This document shows positions 302-61,835 of a DNA stretch of 64,000 nt, one piece after another (within the stretch, counting starts at the first letter, position 1; each line of letters starts with the position of its first letter). Source of the stretch: Cycloclasticus sp. symbiont of Poecilosclerida sp. N. Lineage in GTDB: Bacteria; Pseudomonadota; Gammaproteobacteria; Methylococcales; Cycloclasticaceae. The stretch lies in assembly GCA_002101205.1 (NCBI GenBank), contig LWTM01000074.1, positions 1-64,000 on the forward strand. The letters are read 5' to 3'. The position numbers were made by a program, and so were the translations under genes. The notes beneath the pieces are model-generated. The model had not been told where the DNA came from and ran no database searches. It saw only the letters and a list, made by a program, of their open reading frames with translations.

Positions 302-2047
302 CTACTGTCTTGGTTTAAATTGAGTTTTATGTAAGTGAGCGTATGTCTCATTCTTAGACAATAGGTGATGATGCGTGCCTGACTCAACTATTTTCCCATT
401 TTTCATAACAAGAATTGTATCGGCATTTTCAATAGTTGATAAGCGATGAGCAATAATAAGAGTTGTCTTGCCATCCATTGCTGTTTCTAGGGCTTCTTGT
501 ATCTTTCTTTCAGACTCTGTATCTAACGCTGAGGTGGCTTCATCTAAAATTAGGACCGGCGCGTCTTTTAGCAAGGCCCTAGCAATGGCGAGTCGCTGCC
601 TTTGTCCGCCAGAAAGCTTCAAGCCGTTTTCGCCAATCAGTGTATCTAGCCCGGCAGGTAATTGTTCAATAAACTCCATCGCGTGCGCTTTTGTTGCGGC
701 TTCAATAACTTGCTCTTTAGAGAAAGAGCCAAGAGAGCCGTAGGCAATATTGCGCTCAATGGTATCGTTAAAAAGCGTGACGTGTTGTGTCACTAATGAA
801 ATATGGCTGCGTAGATTGTTGAGTTCATAGTCGTTTATTTCGACACCATCAAGTAAAATTGAGCCTTGTGTATGGTCATAAAAACGCGGAATAAGGTTGG
901 CGAGTGTTGTTTTTCCACTTCCAGAATGGCCAACTAGAGCAATGGTTTTACCCGCTTCAAGTTTGAAAGAAATATTGTCGAGGATTTGTTTTTCTGAGCT
1001 GTTGTAACGGTAGCTAAGAGCTTTAAATTCTAATGCACCTTGAATGCGTTCGGTGGAGTGGCTGCCCGTATTTTTCTCAATATCTTGATCAAGCACTTCA
1101 AAAACACTTTCAGCTGCGGTGATACCTTTTTGAATGGTGGCGTTGATCTCACTCAATTGGCGGATGGGCCTAGGAATGAGACCAGCTGCTATAATATAGG
1201 CAATGAACTCACCTGTTGTTGCGTCTTTCATTAACAATAAAGCAAGGAAAATGAGGGTGCCAAGAGCAATGCTGATGATGAGTTGTAACACAGGTGTTTG
1301 AATGGCGGAGGTTTTAACCATGCGCATGGATTGTTGGAAACTGTATTTACTGGCGCCATGAAAGCGTTCTTGTTCGTAAGACTCACCACCAAAGCTTTTA
1401 ACAACACGATTACCCACAACCATTTCTGAGGCAACATGGGTTAGGTCGCCCATTGAGCTTTGTATTTTTTTGCTAATGCTGCGGAATCGTTGTGTGGCGA
1501 TTTTAACGACCATGCCAATCAGTGGGGCGATGGCGATAAAGATAAGAGATAGTTTCCAGTTCATGTAAAACAGATAACCAAATAATCCGATAACAGTAAA
1601 ACCTTCTCGAGCGAGAACTTTCACGGCATCGGTTGCGGCGCCTGTTACTTGCTGCACATTGTAGGTGATACGAGAAATTAAATGCCCTGAGCTATTGTCA
1701 TCAAAGAAATAGCTAGGTAACAGCGTGTAATGATCAAATAGCTGGCAACGAAGTGTATGGACAACCTTGTTGGAAACAAGTGCTATAAAATAACTGCCGA
1801 GAAAAGAACCTGCCCCTCGTACAAGAACGATACCAACCGAGGCTAATGGTATCCAATAAATGGTATCGCGCTGATTGCCGTTTAAAGCATCCACCATGTA
1901 TTTCATCAATGCGGCGAACACGGGTTGCGTCGCTGCAAAAATTAGAAAACCGATTAAGCTGAGTGCAAAAATTTTCCAATGAGGCTTAACGTAATCTAGG
2001 AGCCTAAAGTAAATATTGAGGCTAGATGTTTTATCGGGTGTCGTCAC
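302..2047 (-). CDS. msbA: Lipid A export ABC transporter, permease and ATPase (MsbA)
   Basis: This 581-residue half-transporter would flip lipid A-core across the inner membrane as a homodimer. The first 300 residues hold the six-helix permease domain. The C-terminal ATPase has a Walker A motif GHSGSGKTT at about 373, the signature LSGGQRQRLAIARAL near 477, Walker B VLILDEATSALD near 497, and the switch histidine in IIAHRLST. The length matches MsbA. The start is a GTG at 2047 with no strong ribosome-binding site. It is divergent from a truncated waaG copy. The intact waaG lies 7.4 kb away, beyond an inserted cassette, and a truncated second copy of this gene's 5' third lies at 9041–9383. The gene itself looks complete. 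Confidence 0.93.
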   Translation of the reverse strand: MTTPDKTSSLNIYFRLLDYVKPHWKIFALSLIGFLIFAATQPVFAALMKYMVDALNGNQRDTIYWIPLASVGIVLVRGAGSFLGSYFIALVSNKVVHTLRCQLFDHYTLLPSYFFDDNSSGHLISRITYNVQQVTGAATDAVKVLAREGFTVIGLFGYLFYMNWKLSLIFIAIAPLIGMVVKIATQRFRSISKKIQSSMGDLTHVASEMVVGNRVVKSFGGESYEQERFHGASKYSFQQSMRMVKTSAIQTPVLQLIISIALGTLIFLALLLMKDATTGEFIAYIIAAGLIPRPIRQLSEINATIQKGITAAESVFEVLDQDIEKNTGSHSTERIQGALEFKALSYRYNSSEKQILDNISFKLEAGKTIALVGHSGSGKTTLANLIPRFYDHTQGSILLDGVEINDYELNNLRSHISLVTQHVTLFNDTIERNIAYGSLGSFSKEQVIEAATKAHAMEFIEQLPAGLDTLIGENGLKLSGGQRQRLAIARALLKDAPVLILDEATSALDTESERKIQEALETAMDGKTTLIIAHRLSTIENADTILVMKNGKIVESGTHHHLLSKNETYAHLHKTQFKPRQ

Positions 2048-2308
2048 GGTTTATTGTTTAATCAAAGGAAATCCCATTTTAACGCATCCTCACATATGAA
2101 GTTGATGGAATAAAGGTAAAATATAAATTACTTTAATTGCTGGTTGATAGCACTGCGAATTATGCGTTTAGCTTTTGCTTTGTATAAATATTTTCCTTAC
2201 GGCGGATTAGCACGTGACTTTGTGCGTATTGCTAATATCTGTCTTGCAAAGGCTGGAGCAATCACGACAAAGCGGCTGATTCCCATAATCAATTATATGA
2301 AAGTTAGA
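1702..2308. repeat. Long direct repeat, copy A (msbA 5' part–intergenic–waaG 5' part)
   Basis: This stretch is closely similar to 9041–9727. It covers the first ~115 codons of msbA, the msbA–waaG intergenic region and the first part of waaG. The match starts sharply at CAAAGAAATAGCTAGGTAAC (1702 here, 9041 in copy B). In this copy the msbA part belongs to the intact gene, while the waaG part is truncated and has lost about 80 bp between the codons for residues 28 and 56. Scattered mismatches show the duplication is not recent. Confidence 0.9.
2162..2308 (+). pseudogene. waaG 5' fragment with internal deletion
   Basis: From the ATG at 2162 the sequence encodes MRLAFALYKYFPYGGLARDF, the same start as the intact waaG at 9499. 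After the codons for NICL it jumps to sequence matching 9665 onward (GCAAAGGCTGGAGCAATCAC), so about 80 bp are missing and the frame is lost. It ends where an IS5-like element begins. It is a dead remnant of the duplicated LPS glucosyltransferase gene. Confidence 0.9.
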
Positions 2309-3101
2309 TAACTTGAGGCCTCAGCACGTGCACTGGCGGTGCTAGTGCTGACAGTGTAACCCAACAAATCCGCATTAATTTTGTTATAATGCATCATGCA
2401 AAAATCATTCTCAACACAGTCCAACCTATTCTTTTCGACCGCTGACTTAGACCACCCTATTATTCATACGTCAGCTTGAAGTAAAAAAAATCATCATGAA
2501 AGAGAGCCGCATTAATATTATTGACAAGGTGAATGGCGCAGCTAGAGAAGGTGCCATGGGGCACGCAGCGCCGATAGAGGTCGTACAATCTGGTGCAGGC
2601 AATGGCAAAGATGGAAAGCCGACAAAAGATCCTGACGCGGGTTGGCATGTTAAGAATGATAGTCGAGGTAAACCTTTATCAAAACAAGAGCAAGCCCGCA
2701 ACAAAGCCATTGCGGTCACTCGAGCAGGTGGTGAGCGACCTTTTGCCACGTATAAGAGACATTATGGGCTTGGCAGAACACGATTTATGGGGTTGGGTAA
2801 AAATGCAACCGTTTATGGTTTAGCTGCCATGGCTGCGAACATTCGCAAAGGGGCTAAGTTTTTAACGCTTTACGGTATACCAAAGCCAAGTTGTGCGGGG
2901 TAACTGTGTCAAAAATCATGGAAAAGCACTAAAAACAGGAATAAAATCGATTTTTTACGCATTAAATGACCTAAAAACAGCATAATTGACGAAAAACAGG
3001 GGAAGTCTCATGAAGGTGGATAAAGTTGTTGGTTATCCCGCCGGCACGCGTGCTGCCTGCGCCGGCGGTGTAAGTACACGTACTGAGGTCTCAGATAGTT
3101 A
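2309..3101 (+). mobile_element. Internally deleted IS5-like element with long imperfect inverted repeats
   Basis: The left end (2309–2334, TAACTTGAGGCCTCAGCACG) matches the reverse complement of the right end (3072–3101), which reads TAACTATCTGAGACCTCAGT. The match continues imperfectly inward for some tens of bases, to a shared CCAACAA. TTAG occurs just outside both ends and could be a 4-bp target duplication, as is usual for IS5 relatives. Inside are only transposase fragments. The right arm also forms a GC-rich hairpin (CCGCCGGC…GCCGGCGG, 3036–3068). The element sits in the waaG relic, so it arrived after or with the cassette. Confidence 0.7.
2396..2903 (+). pseudogene. IS5-family transposase remnant (N-terminal and C-terminal pieces)
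   Basis: An ATG at 2396 opens a 27-residue piece with FFSTADLDHPIIHT, a typical transposase N-terminus, and stops at 2479. A second frame from 2496 to 2903 holds KPTKDPDAGWHVK, then a jump to the C-terminal end of the DDE domain with RNKAIAVTRAGGERPF and YGLGRTRFMGLGKN, which carries the catalytic glutamate region. The middle of the catalytic domain, including the aspartates, is missing. The protein cannot be active. The family call rests on the C-terminal signature. Confidence 0.75.
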
Positions 3102-3181
3102 GGGAGTAATCAGCATGATGAACATGTATAACATTCAAGCGGAGAGATTCAGCTTTAAATATTCAAACAATGAGAATAAAT

Positions 3182-3964
3182 ATGACTAAGAAAGTATTTG
3201 AAACCAGGATGTTTAGAGCTATTCTGATCTGTGTGCCACTTGTAGCTAATATATGTGCTGCGCAAGAAGTTGATCCAGTATTGGCAGAGGGGAAGAACAA
3301 AACTGTAGCTGCACAGAAATCGCAAAAACGTATTGATAAATTAGCGGCTCAAACGTATGACATTATGCAAGACTTTAAGGTCGTAAATAAGCAACTTGAA
3401 GGGATAAAGGTATATAACGCCCAGCTTGGGAAATACATTCAAAACCAAAAGCAAACAATGCTTGACATTGAATACTCAATTAAAAATACCACGGTCATAG
3501 AGCGACAGATTGTGCCACTATCCTTAAAAATGCTTGATGCGCTAGAGCAATTCATTAATTTAGATTTACCATTCCAGCGCGAAACTCGCTTGACCAGTAT
3601 TGCGCAAGTTAGGGAAAACTTAGGTGTGAGCCGTTTTAGTACTTCAGAAAAATTTCGTCAAGTATTAGAGCTATATGACATAGAGTCTGAATACGGCAAT
3701 ACGATCGATCAATATAGTGGTCTTCTAGAGGTTGAAGGGCTGGAGCAAAAAGTCACTTTTTTACGCGTTGGTCGAATTGCTCTGCTTTATCAGACAAGTA
3801 ACCAAGCTAAGACAGGCGCATGGAGTAAGCAAGAGAAACAATGGCAGGCGTTAGATTCTGGGGAATATCGTTCGGCGACAGCTAAGGCCATTCGTATAGC
3901 AAAAAAACAGGCAGCAGTAGATGTGCTTAATTTGCCTATCGCGTTTCCGGAGGCAGTCAAATGA
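3182..3964 (+). CDS. DUF3450 periplasmic protein of a TonB2-type transducer
   Basis: The product is about 260 residues with a signal peptide (hydrophobic stretch AILICVPLVANICAA) followed by a long helical, probably coiled-coil region (residues 25–110) and the conserved C-terminal half of DUF3450. This family is regularly encoded just upstream of ttpC-exbB-exbD-tonB. Its exact role is unknown; a periplasmic accessory role in TonB energisation is inferred from context. An in-frame ATG lies at 3170, but the ATG at 3182 has a better spaced GAGAA and is preferred. Its stop overlaps the next start by 4 bp (ATGA), indicating translational coupling. Confidence 0.85.
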   Translation: MTKKVFETRMFRAILICVPLVANICAAQEVDPVLAEGKNKTVAAQKSQKRIDKLAAQTYDIMQDFKVVNKQLEGIKVYNAQLGKYIQNQKQTMLDIEYSIKNTTVIERQIVPLSLKMLDALEQFINLDLPFQRETRLTSIAQVRENLGVSRFSTSEKFRQVLELYDIESEYGNTIDQYSGLLEVEGLEQKVTFLRVGRIALLYQTSNQAKTGAWSKQEKQWQALDSGEYRSATAKAIRIAKKQAAVDVLNLPIAFPEAVK

Positions 3965-5337
3965 GAATTATTTCCCGATTACCATATTTAGTATTGATTA
4001 CGTTAAGTGTTGTGTTTTCGAGTAGTGCCTATAGTGCTGATAAGGCCATGTCTCTTGATGAGCTATTGCAAATGGTTCGCAGCGCTAAGGTATCTGAATC
4101 CAAAGAGCATAAAAGGCGTGAACGTGAGTTCCTCGTTGGAAAATCTCAGCAGAAGAGCCTATTAACTAAAGCAAAAGCAGAAAAACGGGCTCATGAGCGA
4201 AAAAGTGAAACACTTGAGAATAACTTTGCGAAGAATGAGTTGGAACTAAAAGCGCTTGACGAACAGCTTCAAAATAAACTGGGTTCTCTAAAAGAATTGT
4301 TTGGACATTTGACGGCTACAGCTGGTGATGCCGTAGCAAGGATGGATCAGTCTATCGTTAGTGCACAGCTGCCTGGACGCACAGCTTCATTAGAGGCCCT
4401 GATTAAAAAAATGAGTAGTAATACGCAATTGCCCAGTTTGGAAGAAATTGAAGGCTTATGGTATGAAATAAACCGTGAAATGGTAGAGGCTGGGAAGGTT
4501 GTTAAATTCCAATCTGAATATATCAATGCGGGTGGTGAGAAGGTTAAAGGTGAAGTGGTCAGAATTGGTAATTTTAACTTGATGTCTGAAGGCGCTTATC
4601 TAACATATTCGACAAAAGAGGGGGTTATTTCGGCTTTACCCCGGCAACCAGCCGGCGCATATCTTGATGCTGCAATTGAACTTCAAACATCAGGGGCAGG
4701 CTTTACTCGAATTGGCATTGATCCGACCGGTCCAAGTGGTGGGGGGCTATTACAGGCTTTGATTGACACACCAACGTTGGTTGAAAAGTGGCACCAAGGT
4801 GGTGAGATTGGCTACATAATTTCTGCTGTGGGCCTGTTAGGTATTTTATTGGCGCTTTGGCGCTTTGTTGTTTTATTTGATATCTCACGCAAGGTAAATG
4901 CGCAGCTGAATTCTAAAACCGTGTCTGCAGACAATCCACTAGGCCGTGTGTTGATGGTAGGAGAGAAGAACTCTAGTTTGGATGCAGAGTCAATGGAGTT
5001 GAAATTAAATGAAAGCATATTACGTGAACGACCAAAGATTGAGTTTGGTCTTTCTTTTTTAAAAATCATCGCTATGGTTGCTCCTCTTGGAGGGTTGCTT
5101 GGCACTGTAACTGGGATGATTGTGGTATTCCAGCAAATTACTATTTTTGGTGCAGGTGACCCAAAAATGATGGCGGGCGGTATTTCACAAGCCTTGGTGA
5201 CTACCGTTCTAGGTTTGATTGTCGCAATTCCTATTGTCCTTATGCACACTTGGGTAAATGGTTATGCTCAACGAATACTGCATATTCTTGATGAGCAAAG
5301 TTTAGGCATAGTCGCTGACCAAATTGAGAAGCCTTAA
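3961..5337 (+). CDS. ttpC: TtpC-like MotA/TolQ/ExbB proton-channel protein with periplasmic coiled coil
   Basis: This 458-residue protein starts with a signal peptide (cleavage probably after SSSAYSA). Residues 30–110 are a charged coiled coil and 110–270 a periplasmic domain. The C-terminal half has three membrane helices (about 283–303, 363–391, 410–430). The last two carry the MotA/TolQ/ExbB signature GGLLGTVTGMI and AIPIVLMHT. TtpC is the extra component of TonB2 systems described in Vibrio, which work with ExbB2/ExbD2/TonB2 in ferric siderophore uptake. The gene overlaps the DUF3450 gene by 4 bp and is 2 bp from exbB, so one operon is clear. The substrate is not shown by the sequence. 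Confidence 0.9.
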   Translation: MRIISRLPYLVLITLSVVFSSSAYSADKAMSLDELLQMVRSAKVSESKEHKRREREFLVGKSQQKSLLTKAKAEKRAHERKSETLENNFAKNELELKALDEQLQNKLGSLKELFGHLTATAGDAVARMDQSIVSAQLPGRTASLEALIKKMSSNTQLPSLEEIEGLWYEINREMVEAGKVVKFQSEYINAGGEKVKGEVVRIGNFNLMSEGAYLTYSTKEGVISALPRQPAGAYLDAAIELQTSGAGFTRIGIDPTGPSGGGLLQALIDTPTLVEKWHQGGEIGYIISAVGLLGILLALWRFVVLFDISRKVNAQLNSKTVSADNPLGRVLMVGEKNSSLDAESMELKLNESILRERPKIEFGLSFLKIIAMVAPLGGLLGTVTGMIVVFQQITIFGAGDPKMMAGGISQALVTTVLGLIVAIPIVLMHTWVNGYAQRILHILDEQSLGIVADQIEKP

Positions 5338-5339
5338 TT

Positions 5340-5864
5340 GTGATTTTTATTCAAGATATCTGGGAAGGCGTACGTGACTTTATGGAGCTTGGGGGCGTTG
5401 TTCTTTGGTTTATTTTTGTGTTGCTTTCTGTAATGTGGACATTGATATTTGAAAGAATATGGTACTACAAAATGGGGCTACAAAAAGAGTTGGATGCCTC
5501 CCTTAGTATATGGAATAAACGTCCAGAACGGAAGTCTAAACGCGCTCATCAGGTGCGAGATAAGTTGCTGTCACAAATAAGTATACGTATTAATCAATAT
5601 CTACCTTTAATAAAAACCCTCGTTGCGTTGTCGCCTCTTTTTGGTCTATTGGGCACGGTAACTGGAATGATTAGTGTATTTGAAACTATGGCGATTACAG
5701 GTGGTGGCGATGCTAAAGCCATGTCAAGCGGCGTTTCTATGGCAACCATTCCTACGATGGCGGGTATGGTAACAGCGCTTTCAGGTGTCTTTGGTTTTAC
5801 ATATATTCAAGGTCTGGCAAAAAAAAAGAAGCGGTTACTAGAAAATCGTCTTACTTTGGAATAA
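5340..5864 (+). CDS. exbB: ExbB-like biopolymer transport proton channel
   Basis: The product has 174 residues, the short ExbB form typical of TonB2 systems. It has a first membrane helix near residues 16–36 (GGVVLWFIFVLLSVM), a cytoplasmic loop, and the TolQ/ExbB signature LFGLLGTVTGMISVFE followed by MATIPTMAGMVTALSG. With ExbD it would form the inner-membrane proton channel that powers TonB. The start is a GTG at 5340, 2 bp after the ttpC stop. A 97-bp gap separates it from exbD. Confidence 0.92.
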   Translation: MIFIQDIWEGVRDFMELGGVVLWFIFVLLSVMWTLIFERIWYYKMGLQKELDASLSIWNKRPERKSKRAHQVRDKLLSQISIRINQYLPLIKTLVALSPLFGLLGTVTGMISVFETMAITGGGDAKAMSSGVSMATIPTMAGMVTALSGVFGFTYIQGLAKKKKRLLENRLTLE

Positions 5865-5961
5865 TTTAGTTGGTTTGTTTATGCTTTGGCATATAGAGCA
5901 TAGGTGTTTTAAGTGGTTAGGTAATAGGGTGTAATGGCACTAGTTTAAATGGATATATTCA

Positions 5962-6363
5962 ATGCGAAAAATTAATTTAAGTCCTAAAGAAGAGGCTCAA
6001 GCAATTGATTTAACGCCCATGCTCGATGTTGTATTTATTATGCTCATTTTTTTTATCGTAACAGCATCATTTATAAAACCGCCCGGTATCGAAGTCAATA
6101 AAGTAAATACAGTAACGGCAGTAACGGCAAAGCCAGCTATTCTTGTTGCTATTAACGAGGCTAATGAAATATGGATTGATAAAGCTGTAATAAAAGACAA
6201 TCTGGTAAAACTTCACTTATTGCGCCTTCATACAGACAACCCAAAGGGCAGTTTGGTTATTCAAATTGATGGGAAGGCAACCGTGGAAAAAATTGCCTTA
6301 GTTGCAGATATTGCACACGAGCTTGGTATTGTTGATGTGTCTGTATCAACTAGTAATGATTAG
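5962..6363 (+). CDS. exbD: ExbD biopolymer transport protein, first copy
   Basis: This 133-residue protein has a short cytoplasmic start, a single membrane helix with the conserved DLTPMLDVVFIMLIFFIVT (the channel aspartate is included), and a periplasmic ExbD domain. It partners with ExbB in the proton channel. The 3' end overlaps the preferred tonB start by 8 bp. A separate ExbD of nearly identical N-terminal design lies at 8477–8875 on the other strand. Confidence 0.92.
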   Translation: MRKINLSPKEEAQAIDLTPMLDVVFIMLIFFIVTASFIKPPGIEVNKVNTVTAVTAKPAILVAINEANEIWIDKAVIKDNLVKLHLLRLHTDNPKGSLVIQIDGKATVEKIALVADIAHELGIVDVSVSTSND

Positions 6364-6976
6364 TTTAGCGGCAAATACGAGTGTGCGATTTGCTTTAGCT
6401 ATTGTGCTAGGTGTCATTGCAGCATCTGTATTGACAGTCCTGATGTATTTACTTATCTCAAGTAACAACGGTGAGCTTGATGAGCAACCAGCCCGAAAAA
6501 TTTCAGATATATGGCAAACAGATAGACAACTTAGCGAAAATTTTACAAAAAATAAGCCTGATAAACCAGACGAGCCGGATAAGCAACCAGAGTTTCCAGA
6601 TCAAAAAGTAGATGTGCAAATGGATATTAATGCGGTGAGCATATCGCCTAATCTAAGTTTAAATCTCGATATAGGACTAGGCGGAGGTTTTGCTCGCGAT
6701 AATGATTACATACCGCTTTATGTTCCGCAGCCGGCATATCCACGTCGGGCGCTCTCACGAAACAAAGAAGGGTATGCAGTCATCGAGGTGATAATTACTA
6801 GCACAGGTAGTGTTCGAGACCCAAAGTTGATTGAAGAGGCACCCTCTAATTATGGTTTTGGACGTTCTGCACTTAAAGCAGCGTTGAAATTAAAATACAC
6901 CCCACGTGTCGTAGATGGAAAGGCAGAGGAAGTACTAGGTGTATTCTATAAATTTACATTTTTGATCGATGGGTAG
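6356..6976 (+). CDS. tonB: TonB energy transducer
   Basis: About 206 residues: an N-terminal membrane anchor (residues 10–34), a proline/acid-rich spacer with KPDKPDEPDKQPEFPDQK, and a C-terminal TonB domain containing YVPQPAYPRRALSRNKEGYA and a conserved aromatic end (FYKFTFLIDG). It would carry proton-motive energy from ExbBD to outer-membrane receptors. A longer frame opens at 6302, but the ATG at 6356, overlapping the exbD stop, places the membrane anchor correctly and is chosen. No TonB-dependent receptor gene is present nearby. Confidence 0.9.
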   Translation: MISLAANTSVRFALAIVLGVIAASVLTVLMYLLISSNNGELDEQPARKISDIWQTDRQLSENFTKNKPDKPDEPDKQPEFPDQKVDVQMDINAVSISPNLSLNLDIGLGGGFARDNDYIPLYVPQPAYPRRALSRNKEGYAVIEVIITSTGSVRDPKLIEEAPSNYGFGRSALKAALKLKYTPRVVDGKAEEVLGVFYKFTFLIDG

Positions 6977-6993
6977 TAAATACGGGGCTTTGA

Positions 6994-8394
6994 ATGTTTA
7001 ATAATTTAATTGTCGGAAAGTTGAATTTAAGCTCTATTGAAGAGCCTAATGCGCTTTGCTTTCGGAGAGACATAACATCTAAGCGAGCTTCTTTTTTTGT
7101 ATTTTTAGCACTAGCTTTAGTGTTTTTGTTGTTCGTCCCAAATGAGGCTTATGCGGAAAAAAAAAGTGATAAAAAGTATGCGAATGTAAAGACGCAAAAG
7201 AGACATTCTGTCGGAAGGAAATGTGGAAAAAAATTAGAAAAATCTCAGGACGAGATGGAAGTTGAGCAATGGATTAAGGCTGAGTCAACTCTTAAGGGGG
7301 CGTTGCCTAAGGTTTGCGGTTCTAGCTATGAAAAGTCTCAAGTGTGGAATTACTTGGCTTACGTTTTCTATTCAAATGGCAAAATTAGCCAGGCTATTGA
7401 CGCGTATAAAAAAGTTATATCAGAACCGGCTACAGACGAGAGAACGAGGGTTAACTCGTATTACTCAATAGCGCAGCTTTTTTTCGTTAAGGAAAATTAC
7501 AGCAAAGCAGCGCAGTTTCTCGAAAAATGGATGAAAGAATCGACGGTAGTTGGAGCCGACGGCAAAATCCTGCTTGCTCAAGCCTATTATCAGCTTAATC
7601 GTAAAAAAGAAGCGCTAAACCTAGTTAATAGAACAATTAAAAATTGGGAAATTAAAGGTAAGGTGCCTAAGGAGAATTGGTGGTCATTACAACGGGTCAT
7701 GTACTACGAAAAAAATAACTATGCGGAAGTTGTTGTTATATTAAAGAAGCTAATAAAACATTATTCAAGAGTTACTTATTGGAAGCAACTAGGCAGTATA
7801 TATGGGGAGCTTAATCAAGATTTGAACCAGTTAATTTCTACAGAGGTTGTGTATTTGTTGGGTGATATAAAAAAGGAAAAGGAGCTGCTCGGGTTTGCGT
7901 CCTTATTTATTGCAGCTGATGCGCCTTACTTAGCTGCGCGGGTGGTTGATAAAGGCATTAGTCAGGGTGTAATTGAGGTTACGGCAAAAAACATGGAGTT
8001 CTTGGGGTATTCATGGGAGCTGGCTCAAAATGGTAAAAAAGCACGTGTTTCGCTTGAAAAGGCTGCCAAACTCTCTGATCAAGGAAAAATTTGGGCTAGG
8101 TTGGCAAACGTATATCTTGATATTGGTGCGGATGCGCAAGCCGTTCAAGCTGCGCGTATGGCAATTAAAAAAGGCGGCTTGAGGCGTAGTGACGTTACTA
8201 ATATGGTGCTGGGTAATGCACAGTTAAACTTACATTGCTACGGTTCGGCTATTAAGGCATTTAGGAAGGCAGCTAAAGATAAACGCAGCAGAAAATCTGC
8301 GAACCAATGGATTCAATACGCAGATAAAGAAAATGGGCGTAGATCAAAGTTGCGTCAAGTTGGGGCTAGTTTAGCTGGCTGTGTTCACGCCTAA
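6994..8394 (+). CDS. TPR-repeat protein of the TonB2-type operon
   Basis: The 466-residue product has an N-terminal hydrophobic segment (about 30–52, ending NEAYA), a lysine-rich linker, then helical tetratricopeptide repeats through most of the rest (for example near VWNYLAYVFYSNGKISQAI and YYSIAQLFFVKENYSKAAQF). It is therefore probably secreted or membrane-anchored, facing the periplasm. A TPR protein commonly closes DUF3450–ttpC–exbB–exbD–tonB operons. It lies 17 bp after tonB and a GGGG stretch precedes the ATG. Its function beyond protein–protein contact cannot be read from the sequence. Confidence 0.82.
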   Translation: MFNNLIVGKLNLSSIEEPNALCFRRDITSKRASFFVFLALALVFLLFVPNEAYAEKKSDKKYANVKTQKRHSVGRKCGKKLEKSQDEMEVEQWIKAESTLKGALPKVCGSSYEKSQVWNYLAYVFYSNGKISQAIDAYKKVISEPATDERTRVNSYYSIAQLFFVKENYSKAAQFLEKWMKESTVVGADGKILLAQAYYQLNRKKEALNLVNRTIKNWEIKGKVPKENWWSLQRVMYYEKNNYAEVVVILKKLIKHYSRVTYWKQLGSIYGELNQDLNQLISTEVVYLLGDIKKEKELLGFASLFIAADAPYLAARVVDKGISQGVIEVTAKNMEFLGYSWELAQNGKKARVSLEKAAKLSDQGKIWARLANVYLDIGADAQAVQAARMAIKKGGLRRSDVTNMVLGNAQLNLHCYGSAIKAFRKAAKDKRSRKSANQWIQYADKENGRRSKLRQVGASLAGCVHA

Positions 8395-8476
8395 TTAGCG
8401 TTTGGAATAAACAGGAAGTCGTTATAGGGCTCTTTCGGCCCGTTATCTCAGAATCGCTTACGCTGTGGCCTAACTT

Positions 8477-8875
8477 TTATTTAATTATGGCCAAAGAAAT
8501 ATCAAAAACACCCGCTTCACGTGCTTGATCAGTTATGCGGATATACACTTTAGATGTTGCTTTTGGGTTTGAATAGATAATTACTTTTGTGTTGGGGTCT
8601 TCAGCGCGTAACCTTTCGACGTTTGCTCGAACAGAGCGTATATCAATACGCCGACCTTCCAACATAATGTCATCGTTCGCGCTTATTTCAAAGACGATAT
8701 TTTTGTTTTCAAGGTTAGGTGGCTGCTCTGTTGTAGGCGGTCTTTGAACTGATAAGGTCTTTTCATCAATGAACGTTGAGGTGACAATAAAAAATATCAG
8801 CATAATAAAGACGACATCCAGCATAGGTGTCAAATCTATTTGTGACTCCTCTTCTTTTCTAGGTCTTAAAGCCAT
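8477..8875 (-). CDS. exbD: ExbD biopolymer transport protein, second orphan copy
   Basis: The 132-residue product carries the ExbD core DLTPMLDVVFIMLIFFIVT followed by a periplasmic domain. A GGAG ribosome-binding site precedes the ATG at 8875. It runs opposite to the TonB2-type operon and has no ExbB next to it. In many gammaproteobacteria an exbB–exbD pair sits in the msbA/lpxK neighbourhood. Here a truncated msbA starts upstream (9041), so this gene may have come with the duplicated msbA segment. It appears intact, and whether it is used is unknown. Confidence 0.88.
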   Translation of the reverse strand: MALRPRKEEESQIDLTPMLDVVFIMLIFFIVTSTFIDEKTLSVQRPPTTEQPPNLENKNIVFEISANDDIMLEGRRIDIRSVRANVERLRAEDPNTKVIIYSNPKATSKVYIRITDQAREAGVFDISLAIIK

Positions 8876-9040
8876 CAGTGCTCCCTAACAATCTAAGCTT
8901 AATATATTAATTGATATTAGCTTATTGGCGGAATTAATTAAAGAAAATGTATGCCCAAAGTAGTAATGTCTGGTTTCTCCAAAGTTAAAATATTCGCTTT
9001 TGACTGGAGGGGAATTAACTTGGATGATTACTATGAGCCA

Positions 9041-9383
9041 CAAAGAAATAGCTAGGTAACAGCGTGTAATGATCAAATGGTTGGCAACGAAGTGTCTGGA
9101 CAACCTTGTTGGAAGCAAGTGCTATGAAATAACTGCCGAAAAAAGAACCTACCTCTCGTTCAAGAGCGATGCCAACTGTGGCTAATGGTATCCAATAAAT
9201 GGCATCACGTTGGTTGTCGTTTAAAACATCCACCATATATTTCATCAATGCGGTGAGCATGGGTTGCGTCGATGCAAAGGTTAGAAAACCGATTAAGCTG
9301 AGTGTAAAAAATTTTCAATGAGGTTTAACGTAATCTAGGAGCCTAAAGTAAATATTGAGGCTAGATGTTTTATCGGGTGTCGT
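9041..9383 (-). pseudogene. msbA 5' fragment (about 115 codons)
   Basis: This matches codons 1–115 of the intact msbA at 302–2047, with scattered substitutions and compensating single-base changes near 9310. It breaks off abruptly at 9041 in unrelated sequence. It lacks the rest of the permease domain and the whole ATPase domain, so it cannot work. It keeps the upstream region shared with waaG. Confidence 0.92.
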
Positions 9384-9727
9384 CACGGTTTATTGTTTAA
9401 TCAAAGGGAATCGCATTTTAATGCATACTCACATATGAAATTGATGGAATAAAGGTAAAATAAATTACTTTAATTGCTGGTTGATAGCCCTGCGAATTAT
9501 GCGTTTAGCTTTTGCTTTGTATAAATATTTTCCTTACGGCGGATTAGCGCGTGACTTTGTGCGTATCGCTAATATCTGTCTTGAAAAAGGATATTTAATC
9601 GATGTTTATGTAATGGAGTGGCAAGGTGATTGTATTCATGGGTTTAATACGCACATTTTGTCCTGCAAAGGCTGGAGCAATCACGGCAAAGTGGCCGATT
9701 TCCATAACCAGTTACATGAAAAGTTAA
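9041..9727. repeat. Long direct repeat, copy B (msbA 5' part–intergenic–waaG 5' part)
   Basis: This is the partner of 1702–2308. Here the waaG part belongs to the intact gene and the msbA part is truncated, the reverse of copy A. Intact msbA, cut waaG, cassette, cut msbA, intact waaG is the order produced by a single-crossover (Campbell-type) insertion of a circle carrying an internal msbA'–waaG' piece. Confidence 0.9.
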
Positions 9728-10629
9728 GTGCGAAAAAATATGATGTTGTTATTGGTTTCAATAAAATTCCAAATATTGATGTGTATTATGCTGCGGACTC
9801 TTGCTATATAGACCGCTTCAAAGAAAAATCATTTTTCCAAACTTTCAATCCACGCTTTAGATTTTATTCGAGTGTGGAGCGTGCGGTTTTCGGCGCTGAC
9901 AGCAAAACGCTTTGCTTAATGATCTCTGATGTGCAAACAGGACTGTTTAAACAGCATTATGGAATTGCTGAAGAAAGGTTGGTGTGTTTGCCACCAGGTA
10001 TAGATTTAAGTCGACGTAGACCTGAAAATGCTGCCGAAATACGGGCTAAGTTTCGTAAAGCACGCCAATTTAATGAACAAGATATTGTGATATTAATGGT
10101 CGGCACGGGCTTTAAAACTAAAGGTGTTGATAGAGCGATAGAGGCGTTGTCATCACTGCCGGATGTATTGTTGTCTAAAACACATTTAATGGTTGTTGGC
10201 GAAGGTAACCTGCCACCTTACGAGCGTTTGGCAGCTGAAAGAAAGGTGGCTGACAAAGTTCACCTTGTGGGTGGGCGAAACGATGTCCCTGCGTTCTTGT
10301 TGGGCTGTGATGTCTTATTGCACCCAGCGCGTAAAGAAAATACGGGCACGGTTATTTTGGAAGCAATGGTGGCCGGTTTGCCGGTGTTGGTGACGGGCGT
10401 GTGTGGCTATGCAAAACATGTCAGAAAATCTCAAGCAGGTGTAGTACTGAATGCCCCTTTTTTACAAGAGGCATTAAATGAACAATTAGCGGCTATGCTG
10501 GCGAGTGATAAAGATAACTGGGCAAAAAATGCCTTGGACTATGCGAGCCAAGAAAATTTATACAGCATGCCAGAAAAAGCAGTAGAAGCCATTGAGTGTG
10601 CTGCGGCGAGCTTAAAGAATGTCGTTTGA
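9499..10629 (+). CDS. waaG: LPS core glucosyltransferase I (WaaG/RfaG)
   Basis: About 376 residues, a GT4-family GT-B glycosyltransferase that adds the first glucose to the heptose of the LPS inner core on the cytoplasmic face. The N-terminus MRLAFALYKYFPYGGLARDF is characteristic of WaaG. The C-terminal nucleotide-sugar domain has LLHPARKENTGTVILEAMVA with the EX7E-type glutamates and a GLPVLVTGVCGY loop. A TTG opens the frame at 9481, but the ATG at 9499 matches the family start. It overlaps waaP by 11 bp, so the two are coupled. Confidence 0.93.
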   Translation: MRLAFALYKYFPYGGLARDFVRIANICLEKGYLIDVYVMEWQGDCIHGFNTHILSCKGWSNHGKVADFHNQLHEKLSAKKYDVVIGFNKIPNIDVYYAADSCYIDRFKEKSFFQTFNPRFRFYSSVERAVFGADSKTLCLMISDVQTGLFKQHYGIAEERLVCLPPGIDLSRRRPENAAEIRAKFRKARQFNEQDIVILMVGTGFKTKGVDRAIEALSSLPDVLLSKTHLMVVGEGNLPPYERLAAERKVADKVHLVGGRNDVPAFLLGCDVLLHPARKENTGTVILEAMVAGLPVLVTGVCGYAKHVRKSQAGVVLNAPFLQEALNEQLAAMLASDKDNWAKNALDYASQENLYSMPEKAVEAIECAAASLKNVV

Positions 10630-25862: not shown

Positions 25863-25872
25863 AAATGAATGA

Positions 25873-26145
25873 GGGTCATGACAAGTTCAGCGGCTCTTTT
25901 TTGAACATTTTGAGCAAAATATTGTATAGACCTTGTTCTCGATTATTAAATCTAAACCCACTCTGTTTAAGATGTAAATTGAACATACCTTTATCCATTC
26001 CTTTAAACTTCATCCGTCGTATTTTAGCATAGCGCAGAACGCCTCAATTCCACATATAATCCGCTGTAACGTTCATGCTGAGCAGTTAGGGACCATCTCA
26101 GTATAAACCTTGCCTTCTGTTTTAAGTAGCTTTCATCACTTTCCA
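25873..26145 (-). mobile_element. IS1595-family relic, copy 1 (internally deleted)
   Basis: The reverse strand encodes ESDESYLKQ, then a deletion, KVYTEMVPNCSA, stop, TLQRII, another deletion, then MKFKGMDKGMFNLHLKQSGF and FNNREQGLYNILLKMFKK. This is the C-terminal half of an IS1595 (ISXO2-like) DDE transposase. The outer end GGGTCATGACAAGTTCAG (25873–25890) resembles the termini of the copies at 52973 and 61552. The junction at DESYLKQK is shared with the copy near 61740, so both derive from one deleted ancestor. I see nothing definite from here to 26400. Confidence 0.8.
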
Positions 26146-30765: not shown

Positions 30766-31530
30766 TCATTCTTTTGACTTGTTTAAAAAAGCCGCCATCA
30801 TATTTTTTGCATCATCCGTATCGAAAAGTGGGATAAAGGTTTCACGTTCAAGCTTTAACCCCTCTTCTAATGTTGTATTAATTGCCTTGTTAACACATGC
30901 TTTGCCTGCACGAACTGCTAACGGTGCACGCCCAGCTAATTGCTTAGCTAATTCAATCGTTTCAGCTTCGATTTTTCCAGGCTCAATAACACGGCTTACA
31001 ATACCGCGTTGCAAAGCTTCTTCTGCCAACATGCTGCGACCATTCATAACCATTTCCATGGCTAATGATTTGCCGATAATTCTGGCGACACGTTGTGTGC
31101 CGCCTGCTCCAGGGATAACGCCTAAATTAATTTCAGGTAAAGCGAATTTTGCACCAGTAGATGCCAATAAAATATCGCATTGTAGTGCGAGTTCAAAGCC
31201 ACCGCCTAATGCCATGCCAGAGACAGCACAAACGGTTGGTTTGCTGAAAGTAGAAAGGGCTCTCCAGCCCGTAGACGCCTCAACCATAGCCAACATTTCT
31301 TCACCGCTGATGCCAACCATTTCAGCAATATCTGCGCCGGCTGCGAATGCTTTTTCAGAGCCAGTAATAATGACGGCTCTTATCGCATCATCTTGTTCAA
31401 ACTGATCAAGCGCCGAGCCTAGCTCTGTCAATAATGTTGAATTAAGCGCGTTATATTGACGTGGCCGATTTAGCCTAATCAGAGCAACGCCTTCAGCCGG
31501 GGCTTCAATTAAAAGTGTTTCAAAATCCAT
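30766..31530 (-). CDS. Enoyl-CoA hydratase
   Basis: 254 residues of the crotonase fold, including ALGGGFELALQCDILLAS (oxyanion hole) and LPEINLGVIPGAGGTQR (two catalytic glutamates). It hydrates 2-enoyl-CoA in beta-oxidation. It is 9 bp downstream of the dehydrogenase gene, the last gene of the ligase–thiolase–dehydrogenase–hydratase operon. The substrate chain length is not readable. Confidence 0.93.
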   Translation of the reverse strand: MDFETLLIEAPAEGVALIRLNRPRQYNALNSTLLTELGSALDQFEQDDAIRAVIITGSEKAFAAGADIAEMVGISGEEMLAMVEASTGWRALSTFSKPTVCAVSGMALGGGFELALQCDILLASTGAKFALPEINLGVIPGAGGTQRVARIIGKSLAMEMVMNGRSMLAEEALQRGIVSRVIEPGKIEAETIELAKQLAGRAPLAVRAGKACVNKAINTTLEEGLKLERETFIPLFDTDDAKNMMAAFLNKSKE

Positions 31531-31539
31531 ATCAGCACC

Positions 31540-32310
31540 TTATTTTGCGGCCATGCGAATAGCGCCATCAAGACGAACAACTTCACCATTAAGTACGACA
31601 TTGCCAATCATATGCCCTACGAGGGCAGCATATTCAGACGGCTTACCTAAACGTGGTGGGAAGGGCACCTGTTGGCCTAATGATATGCGGGTCTCTTCAG
31701 GCAAACCGGCAAGCATCGGTGTTTCAAAAATACCTGGAGCGATGGTGTTAACACGAATTCCATAGCGAGCGAGCTCTCTTGCAATAGGTAATGCCATGCC
31801 TACCACGCCAGATTTTGATGCAGAGTAACTGGCTTGACCAATTTGGCCATCAAATGCTGCAACAGAAGCAGTATTAATAATAATGCCACGTTCCCCGTCA
31901 TCCGTTGGCTCATTACTTGTCATGGCCTGCGCCGCTAAGCGAATGACGTTAAAAGTACCCACTAAGTTAACGTTAATGCCTTTTGCAAATAAATCGAGCG
32001 GGTGAGGGTTGCCGTCTCGGTCTAATACCTTGCCTATCACTGCAATGCCTGCGGCATTAATAACACCGTGTACACCCGTAAACTCAGTTTTAGCAACTTC
32101 AATAGCGGCTAGAACATCGGCTTCAGATGTTACGTCCGTTTTAACAAAACGACTTTTAGCACCAAGCTCAGCTTCTTTAGCTTTTCCCGTTTCTTCATTC
32201 ACATCAAGAATTACAACATTTGCGCCTTTCTCAACTAGCATCGATGCCGTTGCACCACCTAAACCAGAGCCACCACCGGTCACTAAAAAAGTTCTGTTTT
32301 CGTAATTCAT
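31540..32310 (-). CDS. SDR-type 3-hydroxyacyl-CoA dehydrogenase (HSD17B10-like)
   Basis: 256 residues. Short-chain dehydrogenase with the NAD motif [15 protein letters not shown], the catalytic [10 protein letters not shown] and a serine in [10 protein letters not shown]. The overall pattern, with [15 protein letters not shown] near the end, is that of type-2 3-hydroxyacyl-CoA dehydrogenases. It oxidises 3-hydroxyacyl-CoA to 3-ketoacyl-CoA, the step between the hydratase and the thiolase encoded next to it. Confidence 0.92.
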
Positions 32311-32347
32311 TATGTCTCCTTAATTTATATAGTCTGAAAGTGTTCTC

Positions 32348-33520
32348 CTAAACACGTTCAATAATAGTGGCTGTTGCCATGCCTAAACCTATGCACATTG
32401 ATTGCAGTGCGAATTGCCCATCGGTTGCCTCTAAACCAGCAACCATTTTTGCAATTAAACCCGCGCCGGTGCCGCCTAATGGGTGCCCATGAGCAATAGC
32501 GCCGCCCCATGGGTTTACTTTTTCTGGCGTAGGCTTTATTTCTTTCACCCATGCCAGTGCAACGGTAGCAAAGGCCTCATTAATTTCAAACCAATCAATA
32601 TCATCCACGGTTAAACCTGCTTTTTTTAGGGCAAGCTGAGTGGCAGCAATAGGACCGTCCAATTGTAATACGGGGTCACTACCGACAACAACACGAGCAC
32701 GAAAGCGTGCTTTTGGAGTCAAGCCGTCGGCTATAGCGATTTCCTTATGAGCAATAAGAATGGCTGCGGCACCATCAGATCGTTGACTTGCGTTACCGGC
32801 GGTAACAACGCCATTACCCTTTGGGCGGAAAACGGTTTTTAAAGAGCCTAATTTTATAGGGTCAACAGAGGCTCTAATGCCTTCGTCAGCGTTTAATACG
32901 ATTGCATTACCTTCTGCATCAACGCCTGCTGTTGGAATGATCTCTTTGTTCAGCCCCGCTTCTTTTGCTTTTTGTGCTTTGGCATGGCTTTCAATCGCAA
33001 AACTGTCGACGTCATTCCGTGTGATGGCCCATTTTTCAGCCATTAACTCAGCGCTAACGCCTTGGTGTACCAGTGGATATTTTGTCAATAATTTTTCCCC
33101 CATAGGGCCAAAGCCTGTATAGGGTTTACCAGGGTTCATGTCTGTTAACATTTCAACGCGGGTCATGTTTTCCACGCCACAAGCAATGGTGTAATTGGCA
33201 TCGCCAGCATCAATAACTTGCGATGCAAAATGGGTCGCTTGTTGACCAGAGCCACAAAAGCGATTTAAGGTGACCGCAGGGACGGTAATAGGAAAATCTG
33301 CAAGCAATGAAGCCTGACGTGCAACATCTGCTGCTTGTTCGCCAATTTGAGTCACTGCGCCGGCAATAATGTCGTCAACACGGCCTTTCTCTAGGCCCGT
33401 TTTGTCCATTAAACCCGATAATGCTCCAGCCAATAATTCATTCGCCGGTGTCTTTCTATAGGCGCCGTTATAACGCCCAAATGGCGTGCGAATTGCTTCA
33501 ATAATAACTGAATCTTTCAT
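32348..33520 (-). CDS. Acetyl-CoA acyltransferase / thiolase
   Basis: 390 residues. Thiolase with the nucleophilic cysteine in [14 protein letters not shown], the catalytic histidine in [16 protein letters not shown], and the C-terminal cysteine in MCIGLGMA. It cleaves 3-ketoacyl-CoA to acetyl-CoA. It is 37 bp from the dehydrogenase and 46 bp from the ligase gene, all on one strand. Confidence 0.94.
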
Positions 33521-33566
33521 TCGTTTTCCTTTGCTTTAGTCTGTTGTTTAAAGTGAGGTGTTGGTG

Positions 33567-35189
33567 TTATTTCCAAATCCATCCTTCATAGATTTTACGT
33601 AATTCTTTTTTCAAAAATTTACCGGTAGATGTTTTAGGTATTTCACTTAGCGTTTCAACATCATCGGGTAGCCAGGTTTTGTGAAACTTACCTTTTAAGA
33701 AACTGTGCACATCTGTTTTGCTAACACTCTTCCCTTCTTTTACGACAATAACGGCTAAAGGACGTTCATCCCATTTTGGATGAGCGACGGCAATAACAGC
33801 CGCTTCAATAACATCAGGGTGATCCATAATGGCATTTTCGAGGTCAACTGAACTTATCCATTCACCGCCAGATTTAACCAAATCTTTGGTGCGATCAGTT
33901 AGTTTAATGAACCCCTCGGGATCAATCGTTGCAACATCGCCTGTTCTTAACCAACCATCACTCGTGAACTTGTCTAGCTGGCTACCTTCTTTGTGGTAAG
34001 CGCCTGTGATCCATGGGCCTCGTACTTGTATTTCACCCTGAGCTTCACCATCCCAACTCTGCAATGAGCCCTCATCATCCATAATTCTGACTTCCACGAA
34101 GGGCAGGGGGACGCCTTGTTTTACCCTTATTTTATATTGTTCATCTTCAGATAAATCAGACATGCCACTTTTCAATATGCCGATGGATGCAAGAGGCGAT
34201 GTTTCTGTCATGCCCCAAGCTTGAATGATTTTCATATCAAAGCTATCAAAAACGCGGAATAAGCTTTCTGGAATGGCGGCCCCACCAACAGCCATACGCA
34301 TATTAGGGGCGGTTTTCCAGCGCGTTGGCTCAGCTTCTAATGCTTGCTTAATGGTCATCCAAATAGTCGGCACGCCTGCGCTTAGTGTTACTTGCTCTTG
34401 CTCGTATAGGTCCATCAAGCTTTCTGCATCTAGGTGTGGCCCCGGGAATACTAATTTTGCACCAGCCATGACAGCGGTATAAGGCAAACCCCAAGCATTA
34501 GCATGGAACATAGGAACAACGGGAGTAACGACGTCGCATTGGTTAATAGCTAAAGCGCTGCCCAAAGCTTCAGCCATAGAATGCAAAACTGTTGACCGGT
34601 GACTGTATACAACACCCTTAGGTCGACCCGTTGTACCAGATGTGTAGCACATGCCTAATGCATCATTTTCATCAATTTCGGGATATTCAAACTCGCTTGA
34701 CCCTGTTTCTAGAAAGTCTTCATAGTTAATGAACTCGTCGCTAATCTCTGCGCCACAAAGTGGTACGACAATGACTTTTTTAAACGATGTTTTATCTTTA
34801 ATCTGCTCGTATAAAGGTAATAAAACATCATCAAGAATTAATATTTGATCTTCAGCGTGGTTAACGATGTAGCTAATGTCGTCAGGCAATAAGCGTAAAT
34901 TAAGCGTGTGTAGTACCGCGCCTGTACAGGGAATTCCCATATAGCACTCTAAATGCGCATAGTGATTCCACATAAGCGTGGCAACGCAATCACCTTTTTT
35001 TATACCGGCTTGAGTTAGTGCAGAGGCTAGTTTCTTTGCGCGGCGCTGTATCGTCAAATAGTTTGTTCGGTGGAGTGTTTTGTCGGGAAGTCGAGAAACA
35101 ACATCTATGGTTGGAAAGTAAAGCCCAATACGTTCTAGCATATGGGGTAATGTTAATGGGAAATCCATCATTGTACTTTTAGTAGACAT
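33567..35189 (-). CDS. Acyl-CoA synthetase (AMP-forming, AlkK/FadD-like)
   Basis: 540 residues, adenylate-forming superfamily. The P-loop [18 protein letters not shown], the AWGMTETSP motif and the [15 protein letters not shown] hinge are intact, and the C-terminal lysine is in [12 protein letters not shown]. It activates a fatty or related acid to its CoA ester. The resemblance is to medium-chain ligases of the AlkK type; the substrate is inferred. It is first in the operon and divergent from a TetR regulator 62 bp away. Confidence 0.92.
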
Positions 35190-35251
35190 TTGTTTTTTTC
35201 ACTTCTATACTTACATTTATACAAATAACCAAGCAAGCGCTAGGTAATAAA

Positions 35252-35833
35252 ATGACTATACCTAAACAATCTGCACGGCGCAAGGAGCTAACCACGGTCG
35301 CTGCAAAACTATTTAAAAAACATTCATTTGATAGGACAACAGTTCGTATGCTGGCATCCGAAGCCGGTATTAAATCTGGTAGCCTGTTTTATCACTATAG
35401 AAACAAAGAAGAAATATTATTTGCAGTTATCAAACAGGGTTTATTAAGTTCGTTGGAGACTATTAAGAAAGAAACAAGCAAAGCAGTCACTGTTGAAGAG
35501 AAGCTGCAAGCTTTGATATTAGGGCAGCTGAAGGCTCTGCATGGCAAAAACAAAGATGCTCATATCGTGTCGATATCCGAATGGCGCTCACTGAATAAGC
35601 AATCTCGTCAGTCCTTAATCGACATACGTGATGAGTATGAGGCATATTGGCAAGGTATTATTGATCTAGCTATTGCTGGTGGTGTATTGAAAGGAGATGC
35701 AAAGTTGCAAAAGCTGTTTATTCTTGGTGCGCTTAACTGGACGACTCAGTGGTATAAGAAAGACCACAGCAAGTCTATAGATGAAATTGCTAAGGAGTGC
35801 TTTGAGTCTGTAACAACTGGGCGTCTAAATTAA
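35252..35833 (+). CDS. TetR/AcrR-family regulator
   Basis: 193 residues with an N-terminal helix-turn-helix (FDRTTVRMLASEAGIKSGSL then FYHYRNKEEILFAVI), and a C-terminal TetR_C-type ligand domain. It is divergent from the acyl-CoA ligase gene with only 62 bp between starts, so it very likely represses or controls the beta-oxidation operon in response to an acyl-CoA. Confidence 0.9.
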   Translation: MTIPKQSARRKELTTVAAKLFKKHSFDRTTVRMLASEAGIKSGSLFYHYRNKEEILFAVIKQGLLSSLETIKKETSKAVTVEEKLQALILGQLKALHGKNKDAHIVSISEWRSLNKQSRQSLIDIRDEYEAYWQGIIDLAIAGGVLKGDAKLQKLFILGALNWTTQWYKKDHSKSIDEIAKECFESVTTGRLN

Positions 35834-52972: not shown

Positions 52973-53485
52973 GGGTTATGACAAGTTAAGCATGGGTATT
53001 ATCATGCTCTAAAGTAGTGTTATCACTATAAAAAACAAGTATACGAACCGTTCGCGCATTTCAAAGAAGTTGTTCGAGAACTTATTCGGTACTTTCTATC
53101 AACTTAAGCGCCCGCTAAATAGCTAACGTTACTTAGCCGCAAACTACCAACACTTAATCTGACGGCGGATAATACGGAGAAAGGCCGATATCAATAGCGT
53201 TATTCATTTTGATGGTTGCGCGGTTATAATCGATTTTGGTTATAAAAAGTGTTTTAGAGTTCATCATGGACAACATGAGTTTTTTAGAGGCGCAGTCATC
53301 GCAAGGGAATTGAGTCGTTGTGGGACTATGCTAAAATACGACGGGTGAAGTTTAGAATAATGGATAACGGTCTGTTCAATCGACACCTTAAACAGAGTGA
53401 GTTTAGATTTAATAATCGAGAGCAAGGTCTATACAATGCTTTGCTCAAAAGGTTCAAAGAAGAGCCCCTTAACTTGTCATAACCC
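52973..53485 (+). mobile_element. IS1595-family relic, copy 2, with both terminal repeats
   Basis: Both ends are present: GGGTTATGACAAGTTAAG (52973–52990) and its exact inverse CTTAACTTGTCATAACCC (53468–53485). The forward strand encodes pieces of the DDE domain, VHHGQHEFF, SHRKGIESLWDYAKIRRVKF and HLKQSEFRFNNREQGLYN, ending KEEPLNLS. About half of a normal element is missing and frames are broken. It lies between envC and ctpA and pushes ctpA out of the operon. Confidence 0.88.
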
Positions 53486-53508
53486 TTAATTTATTTTATG
53501 GAGAACAA

Positions 53509-61551: not shown

Positions 61552-61835
61552 GGGTTATGACAAGTTAAGGGGCTCTTTTTTGAATATTTTGAGCAAAATA
61601 TTGATAAACCTTGCTCTCGATTATTAAATCTAAACTCACTCTGTTTAAGGTGTAATTTGAACATACCTTTAAACTTCAACAATCGTATTTTAGCATAGCC
61701 TACAACGACTCAATATAAACTTTACCTTCTGTTTTAAGTCGCTTTCATCAACTTTAACTTGTCCTGCTAAAGGCGAAAATTCTTGCTCACAAAAGAATTT
61801 TCCATTATTTGTGTTGCCGCCCAAAAAGTCGAAAT
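61552..61835 (-). mobile_element. IS1595-family relic, copy 3 (one end)
   Basis: The terminus GGGTTATGACAAGTTAAG is at 61552–61569. The reverse strand reads FSPLAGQVKVDESDLKQ, then the same deletion as copy 1, and HLKQSEF-like sequence to the end. Frames are broken. The other terminus is not found, so this copy is truncated on its right side. Confidence 0.82.

Follow-up and report, generated by a model that had tools for sequence, protein, structure and literature searches.

Six-gene TonB2/TonB3-type operons with the order ttpB-ttpC-exbB-exbD-tonB-ttpD are described for Vibrio and for Teredinibacter in the parts of PMC6957404 and PMC10734418 that bear on gene order, and the same part of the former places a receptor gene at the start of the Vibrio TonB3 operon. 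Here we analyse a cassette of this kind in a 64-kb stretch of DNA, hereafter the window, which is the first 64 kb of contig C74 of the Cycloclasticus sp. symbiont of Poecilosclerida sp. N. The cassette stands between msbA and waaG, where two copies of the msbA-waaG junction flank it, and its presence there is derived. The bacterium is a relative of marine hydrocarbon degraders, and its genome (G000) comprises 1.9 Mb in 77 contigs, with an estimated completeness of 98.24% and contamination of 1.24%. In the literature on Cycloclasticus symbionts we found nothing to tie to this locus, which is not to claim that it is absent from print. Comparisons drew on a genus set of 18 genomes, the window's own included (completeness 58-100%), and on a class sample of 369 genomes, from which 16 ttp loci of 16 genomes were compared; the relative G011 (80% complete) belongs to the former and is not among the genomes listed for the latter.

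The window has the same six genes in the same order as the Vibrio TonB2 system (ttpB2-ttpC2-exbB2-exbD2-tonB2-ttpD2), as far as that system is set out in the relevant part of PMC6957404, with a DUF3450 protein first, in the place of TtpB2, and a tetratricopeptide repeat (TPR) protein last, as TtpD2 is. It differs from that system in an extra, inverted exbD and in its site between msbA and waaG. Judged by open reading frames (ORFs; those of 80 aa or more were listed) and Pfam domains, the cargo is a known six-gene TonB2/TonB3-type system followed by the inverted exbD. On the plus strand lie a ttpB-like gene (3170-3964; DUF3450, E=1.9e-72), a ttpC-like gene for an ExbB-like protein with a long N-terminal part (3961-5337; MotA_ExbB), exbB (5340-5864; MotA_ExbB), a first exbD (5962-6363; ExbD), tonB (6353-6976; TonB_C, E=4e-12) and a ttpD-like gene (6994-8394; TPR). 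The start of tonB is uncertain, a frame of 207 aa opening at GTG 6353 and the ORF tool giving TTG 6302. The extra exbD (8477-8875; ExbD) lies on the minus strand. Besides these seven frames, the block holds an IS5-like insertion sequence (IS) remnant and about 100 bp from the start of an ISNCY-like element. The remnant occupies the head of the operon, and no receptor gene was found at that place in the window; G011, by contrast, has a TonB-dependent receptor before its cassette, like the Vibrio TonB3 system in the part of PMC6957404 that deals with it. The best match to the Fur consensus upstream of ttpB scores 11/19 both in the window and in G011, a figure obtained without a shuffled control.

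The left flank of the block is formed by an intact gene that we take to be msbA, following the initial annotation (302-2047, minus strand; a 581-aa ABC transporter with Pfam ABC_membrane and ABC_tran), whose protein is 62-85% identical to the copies in 13 relatives. The right flank is an intact glycosyltransferase gene of the family 4 type (9481-10629, plus strand; Pfam Glycos_transf_1), presumably waaG, as the initial annotation named it. Between them, the self-BLAST and alignments with outgroups delimit a left copy of the junction (1702-2308), made up of the msbA 5′ part, the spacer and a cut waaG′ (2162-2308, plus strand), and a right copy (9041-9727) that includes a cut msbA′ reaching to 9386 with one internal stop. 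The two copies flank a 6.7-kb block and constitute the longest repeat found in the window by self-BLAST. Positions 1702-2250 and 9041-9587 are 92.5% identical over 549 bp, with 39 mismatches and one gap (E=0); a second match, from a self-BLAST of 14 kb, pairs 2240-2306 with 9659-9726 at 86.8% over 68 bp (E=4e-16). Both matches are direct repeats; the complete msbA extends outward from the left copy and the complete waaG from the right one, and about 80 bp are missing inside the left waaG′ between the two matching pieces. The order intact msbA, cut waaG, 6.7-kb block, cut msbA, intact waaG, and the match of some 600 bp with scattered differences, had both been proposed in the initial annotation, and the ORF list, self-BLAST and alignment bear them out.

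Comparison with relatives established which arrangement is the older. At a threshold of E<=1e-100, msbA was found in 14 of the 18 genus genomes, own included; G007, G012, G013 and G015 had none at this threshold and stood outside the comparison, leaving 13 other genomes. In 12 of these, G011 among them, msbA and waaG are adjacent and uninterrupted, waaG starting a short distance from the start of msbA; the insertion in the window is therefore derived, and the uninterrupted junction that the initial annotation proposed to look for in related genomes does exist. The one exception is G003, where other ORFs follow msbA and no waaG appears before the contig ends 4.7 kb further on. By eye, these ORFs (L031, 8494-11059) resemble pieces of an NTPase and may represent a separate interruption of the same junction.

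Both edges of the block carry IS sequence. At the right join, the 5′ end of an ISNCY-like element (8950-9051, plus strand; 87% identical to C76:172603-172704), its transposase cut within the first codons (MITMSHKEI), is fused to msbA′. In the alignment, the window agrees with the ISNCY-like copy as far as CAAAGAAATAG (9041-9051) and with msbA beyond it; this 11-bp sequence is common to the ISNCY-like transposase and msbA, and is also found in intact msbA at 1702-1712. We estimate by hand, without a control, that an 11-bp agreement at one given join would arise by chance with a probability of the order of 1e-6 to 1e-5. The family name rests on a weak NCBIfam ISNCY match of the N-terminus of the C76 copy (E=3e-5; 23 bits, cut-off 250), and pieces of the element were found in G000 (four), G003 (one) and G004 (one) and in none of the other 15 genomes, G011 included. 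At the left join, waaG′ ends near 2307 and the IS5-like remnant follows (2314-3093, plus strand), with a C-terminal transposase ORF (2496-2903; Pfam DDE; NCBIfam IS5 E=4.5e-13, below the family cut-off) and inverted ends beginning GAGRCCTCAG. The IS5-like family has at least 77 matching pieces in the 1.9-Mb genome, self included (40 of 73 candidates scored), many of them decayed. Short, isolated matches to its GC-rich inverted ends occur as well, which hints at an old IS burst and at genome erosion.

Sequence of mobile elements at both edges could suggest that the cassette was brought in by composite or otherwise IS-mediated transposition. We consider this the most improbable of the accounts: the edge elements belong to different families, the right one is only a stub, and the flanks of the IS5-like remnant have in common only a doubtful AGATA. 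A flanking duplication of 0.6-0.7 kb, moreover, far exceeds IS target duplications. A composite transposon in the strict sense, with the same IS at both ends and a short target duplication, was rejected, as the families differ and no clear short duplication is present. That the arrangement is an assembly artefact or a strain chimera in an incomplete genome is also very unlikely. The division into 77 contigs and the contamination estimate leave room for it, but the two copies differ by 7.5% with an excess of changes in the cut msbA′, and the contig carries intact msbA, intact waaG and the gene that comes after waaG in relatives. An overlap of 11 bp is too short to mislead an assembler.

Our preferred account, held tentatively and at slightly less than even confidence, is an illegitimate, duplicative insertion of the cassette into msbA-waaG within the symbiont's own lineage. 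A replication or repair intermediate would, most likely, have left waaG at about 2308 and copied an IS-flanked cassette of the same form as the one beside the receptor in the G011 catabolic locus. It would then have re-entered msbA some 0.6-0.7 kb behind its exit, by way of the 11 bp common to the ISNCY-like transposase and msbA. Each flank would thereby keep one complete gene, msbA on the left and waaG on the right, and the insert would have cost neither; the redundant halves would subsequently decay while the cassette stayed intact. Every model must make two illegitimate joins, and a template switch or an equivalent illegitimate insertion needs only those. Rearrangements with more than 10 bp of microhomology at their junctions are reported for Salmonella in the part of PMC3411829 that deals with them. 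The locus is thus a known cassette and a known class of rearrangement in a new instance; a template switch and a source within the lineage are the steps that we infer.

The initial annotation had instead proposed that a circle carrying the cassette and an internal msbA′-waaG′ piece integrated by a single, Campbell-type crossover with the chromosome. The geometry fits this exactly, as the order intact, cut, insert, cut, intact in direct orientation is what such an event leaves, with a junction copy on each side. Nevertheless, the block ORFs include no plasmid or phage maintenance or mobility gene, only the IS remnant, although this is not fatal if the present joins are secondary deletions. Plasmids do carry relatives of the cassette, TtpC finding a match in 96 plasmid records, 22 of which cover at least 80% of the protein, and several of these stand on Pseudoalteromonas replicons of 0.7-1.3 Mb. 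All 96, however, are less than 60% identical (the best among the 10 listed reaches 46.7%). Seven phage records have a TtpC match, with coverage of at most 36% and no close copy, and a scan of viral contigs, sensitive to close relatives only, found no copy of the cassette. The plasmid search suggested by the initial annotation therefore yielded no close copy. A circle could conceivably have been built from the lineage's own DNA, but building it would take the same two illegitimate joins, followed by an extra crossover. The geometry of the earlier proposal thus stands, whereas capture of a TonB2-type system from a circle is not borne out, neither a backbone or mobility gene in the block nor a donor circle having been found, and we regard Campbell-type integration as a fairly unlikely alternative.

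The differences between the junction copies bear on the donor as well. We sorted 49 substitutions (30 in msbA, 13 in waaG and 6 in the spacer), polarised with G004, G005 and G006 as outgroups. For msbA, the cut copy has 16 derived changes and the intact copy 7, the other 7 being mixed. Judged in the codons of the intact copy, the 16 changes in cut msbA′ comprise 13 replacements, one of them a stop, and 3 silent changes; there is therefore no excess of silent donor differences, and a diverged donor strain is not favoured. The cut msbA′ is decaying, in the pattern that neutral decay of an initially identical copy would give, and its differences resemble such decay rather than donor divergence, a point against the circle. 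For waaG, 7 changes are derived in the cut (left) copy, 1 in the intact (right) copy, 3 in neither and 2 are mixed; the spacer has 3 right-derived, 2 left-derived and 1 in neither. The decay argument rests on msbA, not on waaG, and of the later decay of the redundant halves claimed in the initial annotation, that of cut msbA′ is upheld while the evidence for that of waaG′ is thin.

The cassette has fared differently. Its 5502 coding bases contain no stop, and relative to G011 they show 0.16-0.23 replacement changes per site against 0.67-0.84 silent changes. Random change at 4.6%, a rough rate taken from the 16 changes in 346 bp, introduced a mean of 9 stops into the cassette and left 0 of 200 runs stop-free; at 2% the mean was 4 stops, and 1 of 200 runs was stop-free. 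Intact frames under selection, as expected of a ttp system, point to a cassette that probably continues to function.

The closest relative of the cassette was found in G011, the only one of the 17 other genus genomes with a full TtpC (74% identity). TtpC matches were present in 75 of the 369 class-sample genomes, own included, the best other reaching 53%, and a tree of 31 sequences placed the window and G011 as sisters with support 1.0. The G011 cassette (L041) has the same seven genes in the same order and orientation, with 67-78% protein identity to the window (70.6% for the ttpB-like gene, 73.8% for the ttpC-like gene and 78.4% for the inverted exbD). Since the inverted exbD has the same place there, it is part of the cassette, and the idea that it is a scar of a cut exbB-exbD operon was rejected. 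All six genes in window order were found in 13 of the 16 other class loci, two of them with two exbD; L123, L128 and L129 run into contig ends and show the same order in the part that is visible. No inverted exbD was found in the 12 of these 16 loci whose stretch extends more than 2 kb past ttpD, and that of L120 ends too soon after ttpD for a judgement. L130 (G184) and L134 (G198) have two exbD in line within the ttp cassette, of which the window's inverted exbD could be a moved counterpart. A recent exchange with the G011 lineage is not favoured, as the identity of the cassette proteins does not exceed that of the chromosomal ExbB/ExbD and TolQ/TolR pairs (82-90%); their divergence does not exceed that of lipopolysaccharide genes (64-67%) or of a TolA-like protein (67%).

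Unlike in the window, the G011 cassette sits in an acyl-CoA catabolic locus with its own receptor, in the order receptor, cassette, inverted exbD, acyl-CoA dehydrogenase, aldehyde dehydrogenase, TetR, ligase, thiolase (in both genomes the names of the catabolic genes were assigned by eye, not by family search). The initial annotation had advised looking for the cassette elsewhere in sister strains, and it was found in this one relative, at a catabolic locus rather than at msbA-waaG. Cassette and receptor lie there between the acyl-CoA dehydrogenase and a ligase, two genes that follow each other without interruption in G006, G007 and G014; in G009 that ligase is absent and a second dehydrogenase is shortened, and the contig of G015 ends at this point. 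The window itself retains half of such a locus at 30766-35833 (enoyl-CoA hydratase, SDR, thiolase, acyl-CoA ligase and TetR), with 84% identity to G011 for the thiolase, 86% for the ligase and 65% for TetR, and the five genes have the same order in G006, G007 and G009. It stops after TetR without a cassette, followed by other sequence and a pyrE-like ORF. The G011 acyl-CoA dehydrogenase has counterparts of 79-87% in G006, G007, G009, G014 and G015; the best match in G000 is 39%, and G003, G004 and G005 resemble it in this (38-41%). Within the regions of the four Plug-domain receptor hits of G000, nothing matched the G011 receptor at E<=1e-20. The cassette therefore survives away from the kind of locus it occupies in G011, and by analogy it may once have sat at the catabolic locus in the window's lineage as well. 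Elsewhere in the window, a repeat of about 160-190 bp occurs in three copies of 84-87% identity (25863-26051, 53306-53496 and 61552-61714), the one at 53 kb inverted.

The proximity of this truncated locus, about 25 kb away on the same side, would suit a larger tandem duplication that began at msbA, extended to a cassette at another place on this chromosome arm and was joined at ISNCY/msbA′; the first copy would then have lost the stretch between waaG′ and the cassette, and the second copy its cassette. Only duplication and deletion at short repeats would be needed. Against it, a cassette lying after TetR in the G011 orientation would turn its exbD end towards waaG, which is wrong for a direct tandem, and the later loss of the second cassette has to be assumed. 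In G006, moreover, the catabolic and msbA-waaG loci are about 0.92 Mb apart, so their present nearness in the window may be recent. We give this route a minor chance.

Several observations weigh against the duplicative insertion from within the lineage that we prefer. No source copy of the cassette was found in the symbiont's own genome, which is split into 77 contigs, and origin at the 35.8-kb locus therefore rests on analogy with G011. G006, whose msbA is 84% identical, has the catabolic locus but no cassette in it, and vertical inheritance would therefore require several losses; the window and G011 lineages may instead have acquired it separately, and the cassette proteins are more diverged from G011 than the chromosomal Exb/Tol pairs. 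On the left, the IS5-like remnant obscures the join, and no clear microhomology is seen there; as each of the two visible joins could stem from a later deletion, all readings of the mechanism are limited. Intact msbA has changed too, its 7 derived changes being 4 replacements and 3 silent, and in waaG 4 of the 7 changes lie in the last five aligned bases, where a single gap removes them and leaves 3 to 1 plus the 80-bp loss. Differences between the copies are unevenly spread, with 8 in the central 265 bp against 30 in the outer 284 bp of msbA, and the longest clean run is 83 bp (p ~0.06); constraint on a shared promoter region or gene conversion could account for the fewer central differences. 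Finally, the Salmonella study, in the part that treats its junctions, had none near its IS200 copies (PMC3411829).

What the cassette might now energise can be read against the TonB complement of the genome. Fifteen of 17 relatives are listed with a TonB type whose open frame is 283-292 aa long (for G008 the frame is 148 aa, and G013 has none). This type had no match in G000, which may be incomplete; its TonB-like set consists of a 221-aa TonB frame, a TolA-like hit and the cassette TonB. The 283-292-aa type adjoins a gshB-like ORF, identified by eye, in G006 and G004. Conceivably the relocation was adaptive: with the receptor and half of the catabolic locus lost, selection would have retained the orphan energiser for taking over the work of another TonB, and its new place behind the surviving copy of the waaG promoter region would tie the cassette to envelope synthesis. 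We consider this improbable and offer it as speculation.

The interest of the locus lies in an intact gene on each side, a rough built-in clock and an orphaned energiser. It illustrates clearly how a block of several genes can be inserted into an important pair of envelope genes and leave both unbroken, since the flanking duplication provides a spare. With the decaying half as a rough neutral clock, the unbroken state of the cassette speaks for selection. Finally, the cassette links an orphan TonB system to the catabolic locus that holds its counterpart in a relative, a hint at the role it may have had in the past.

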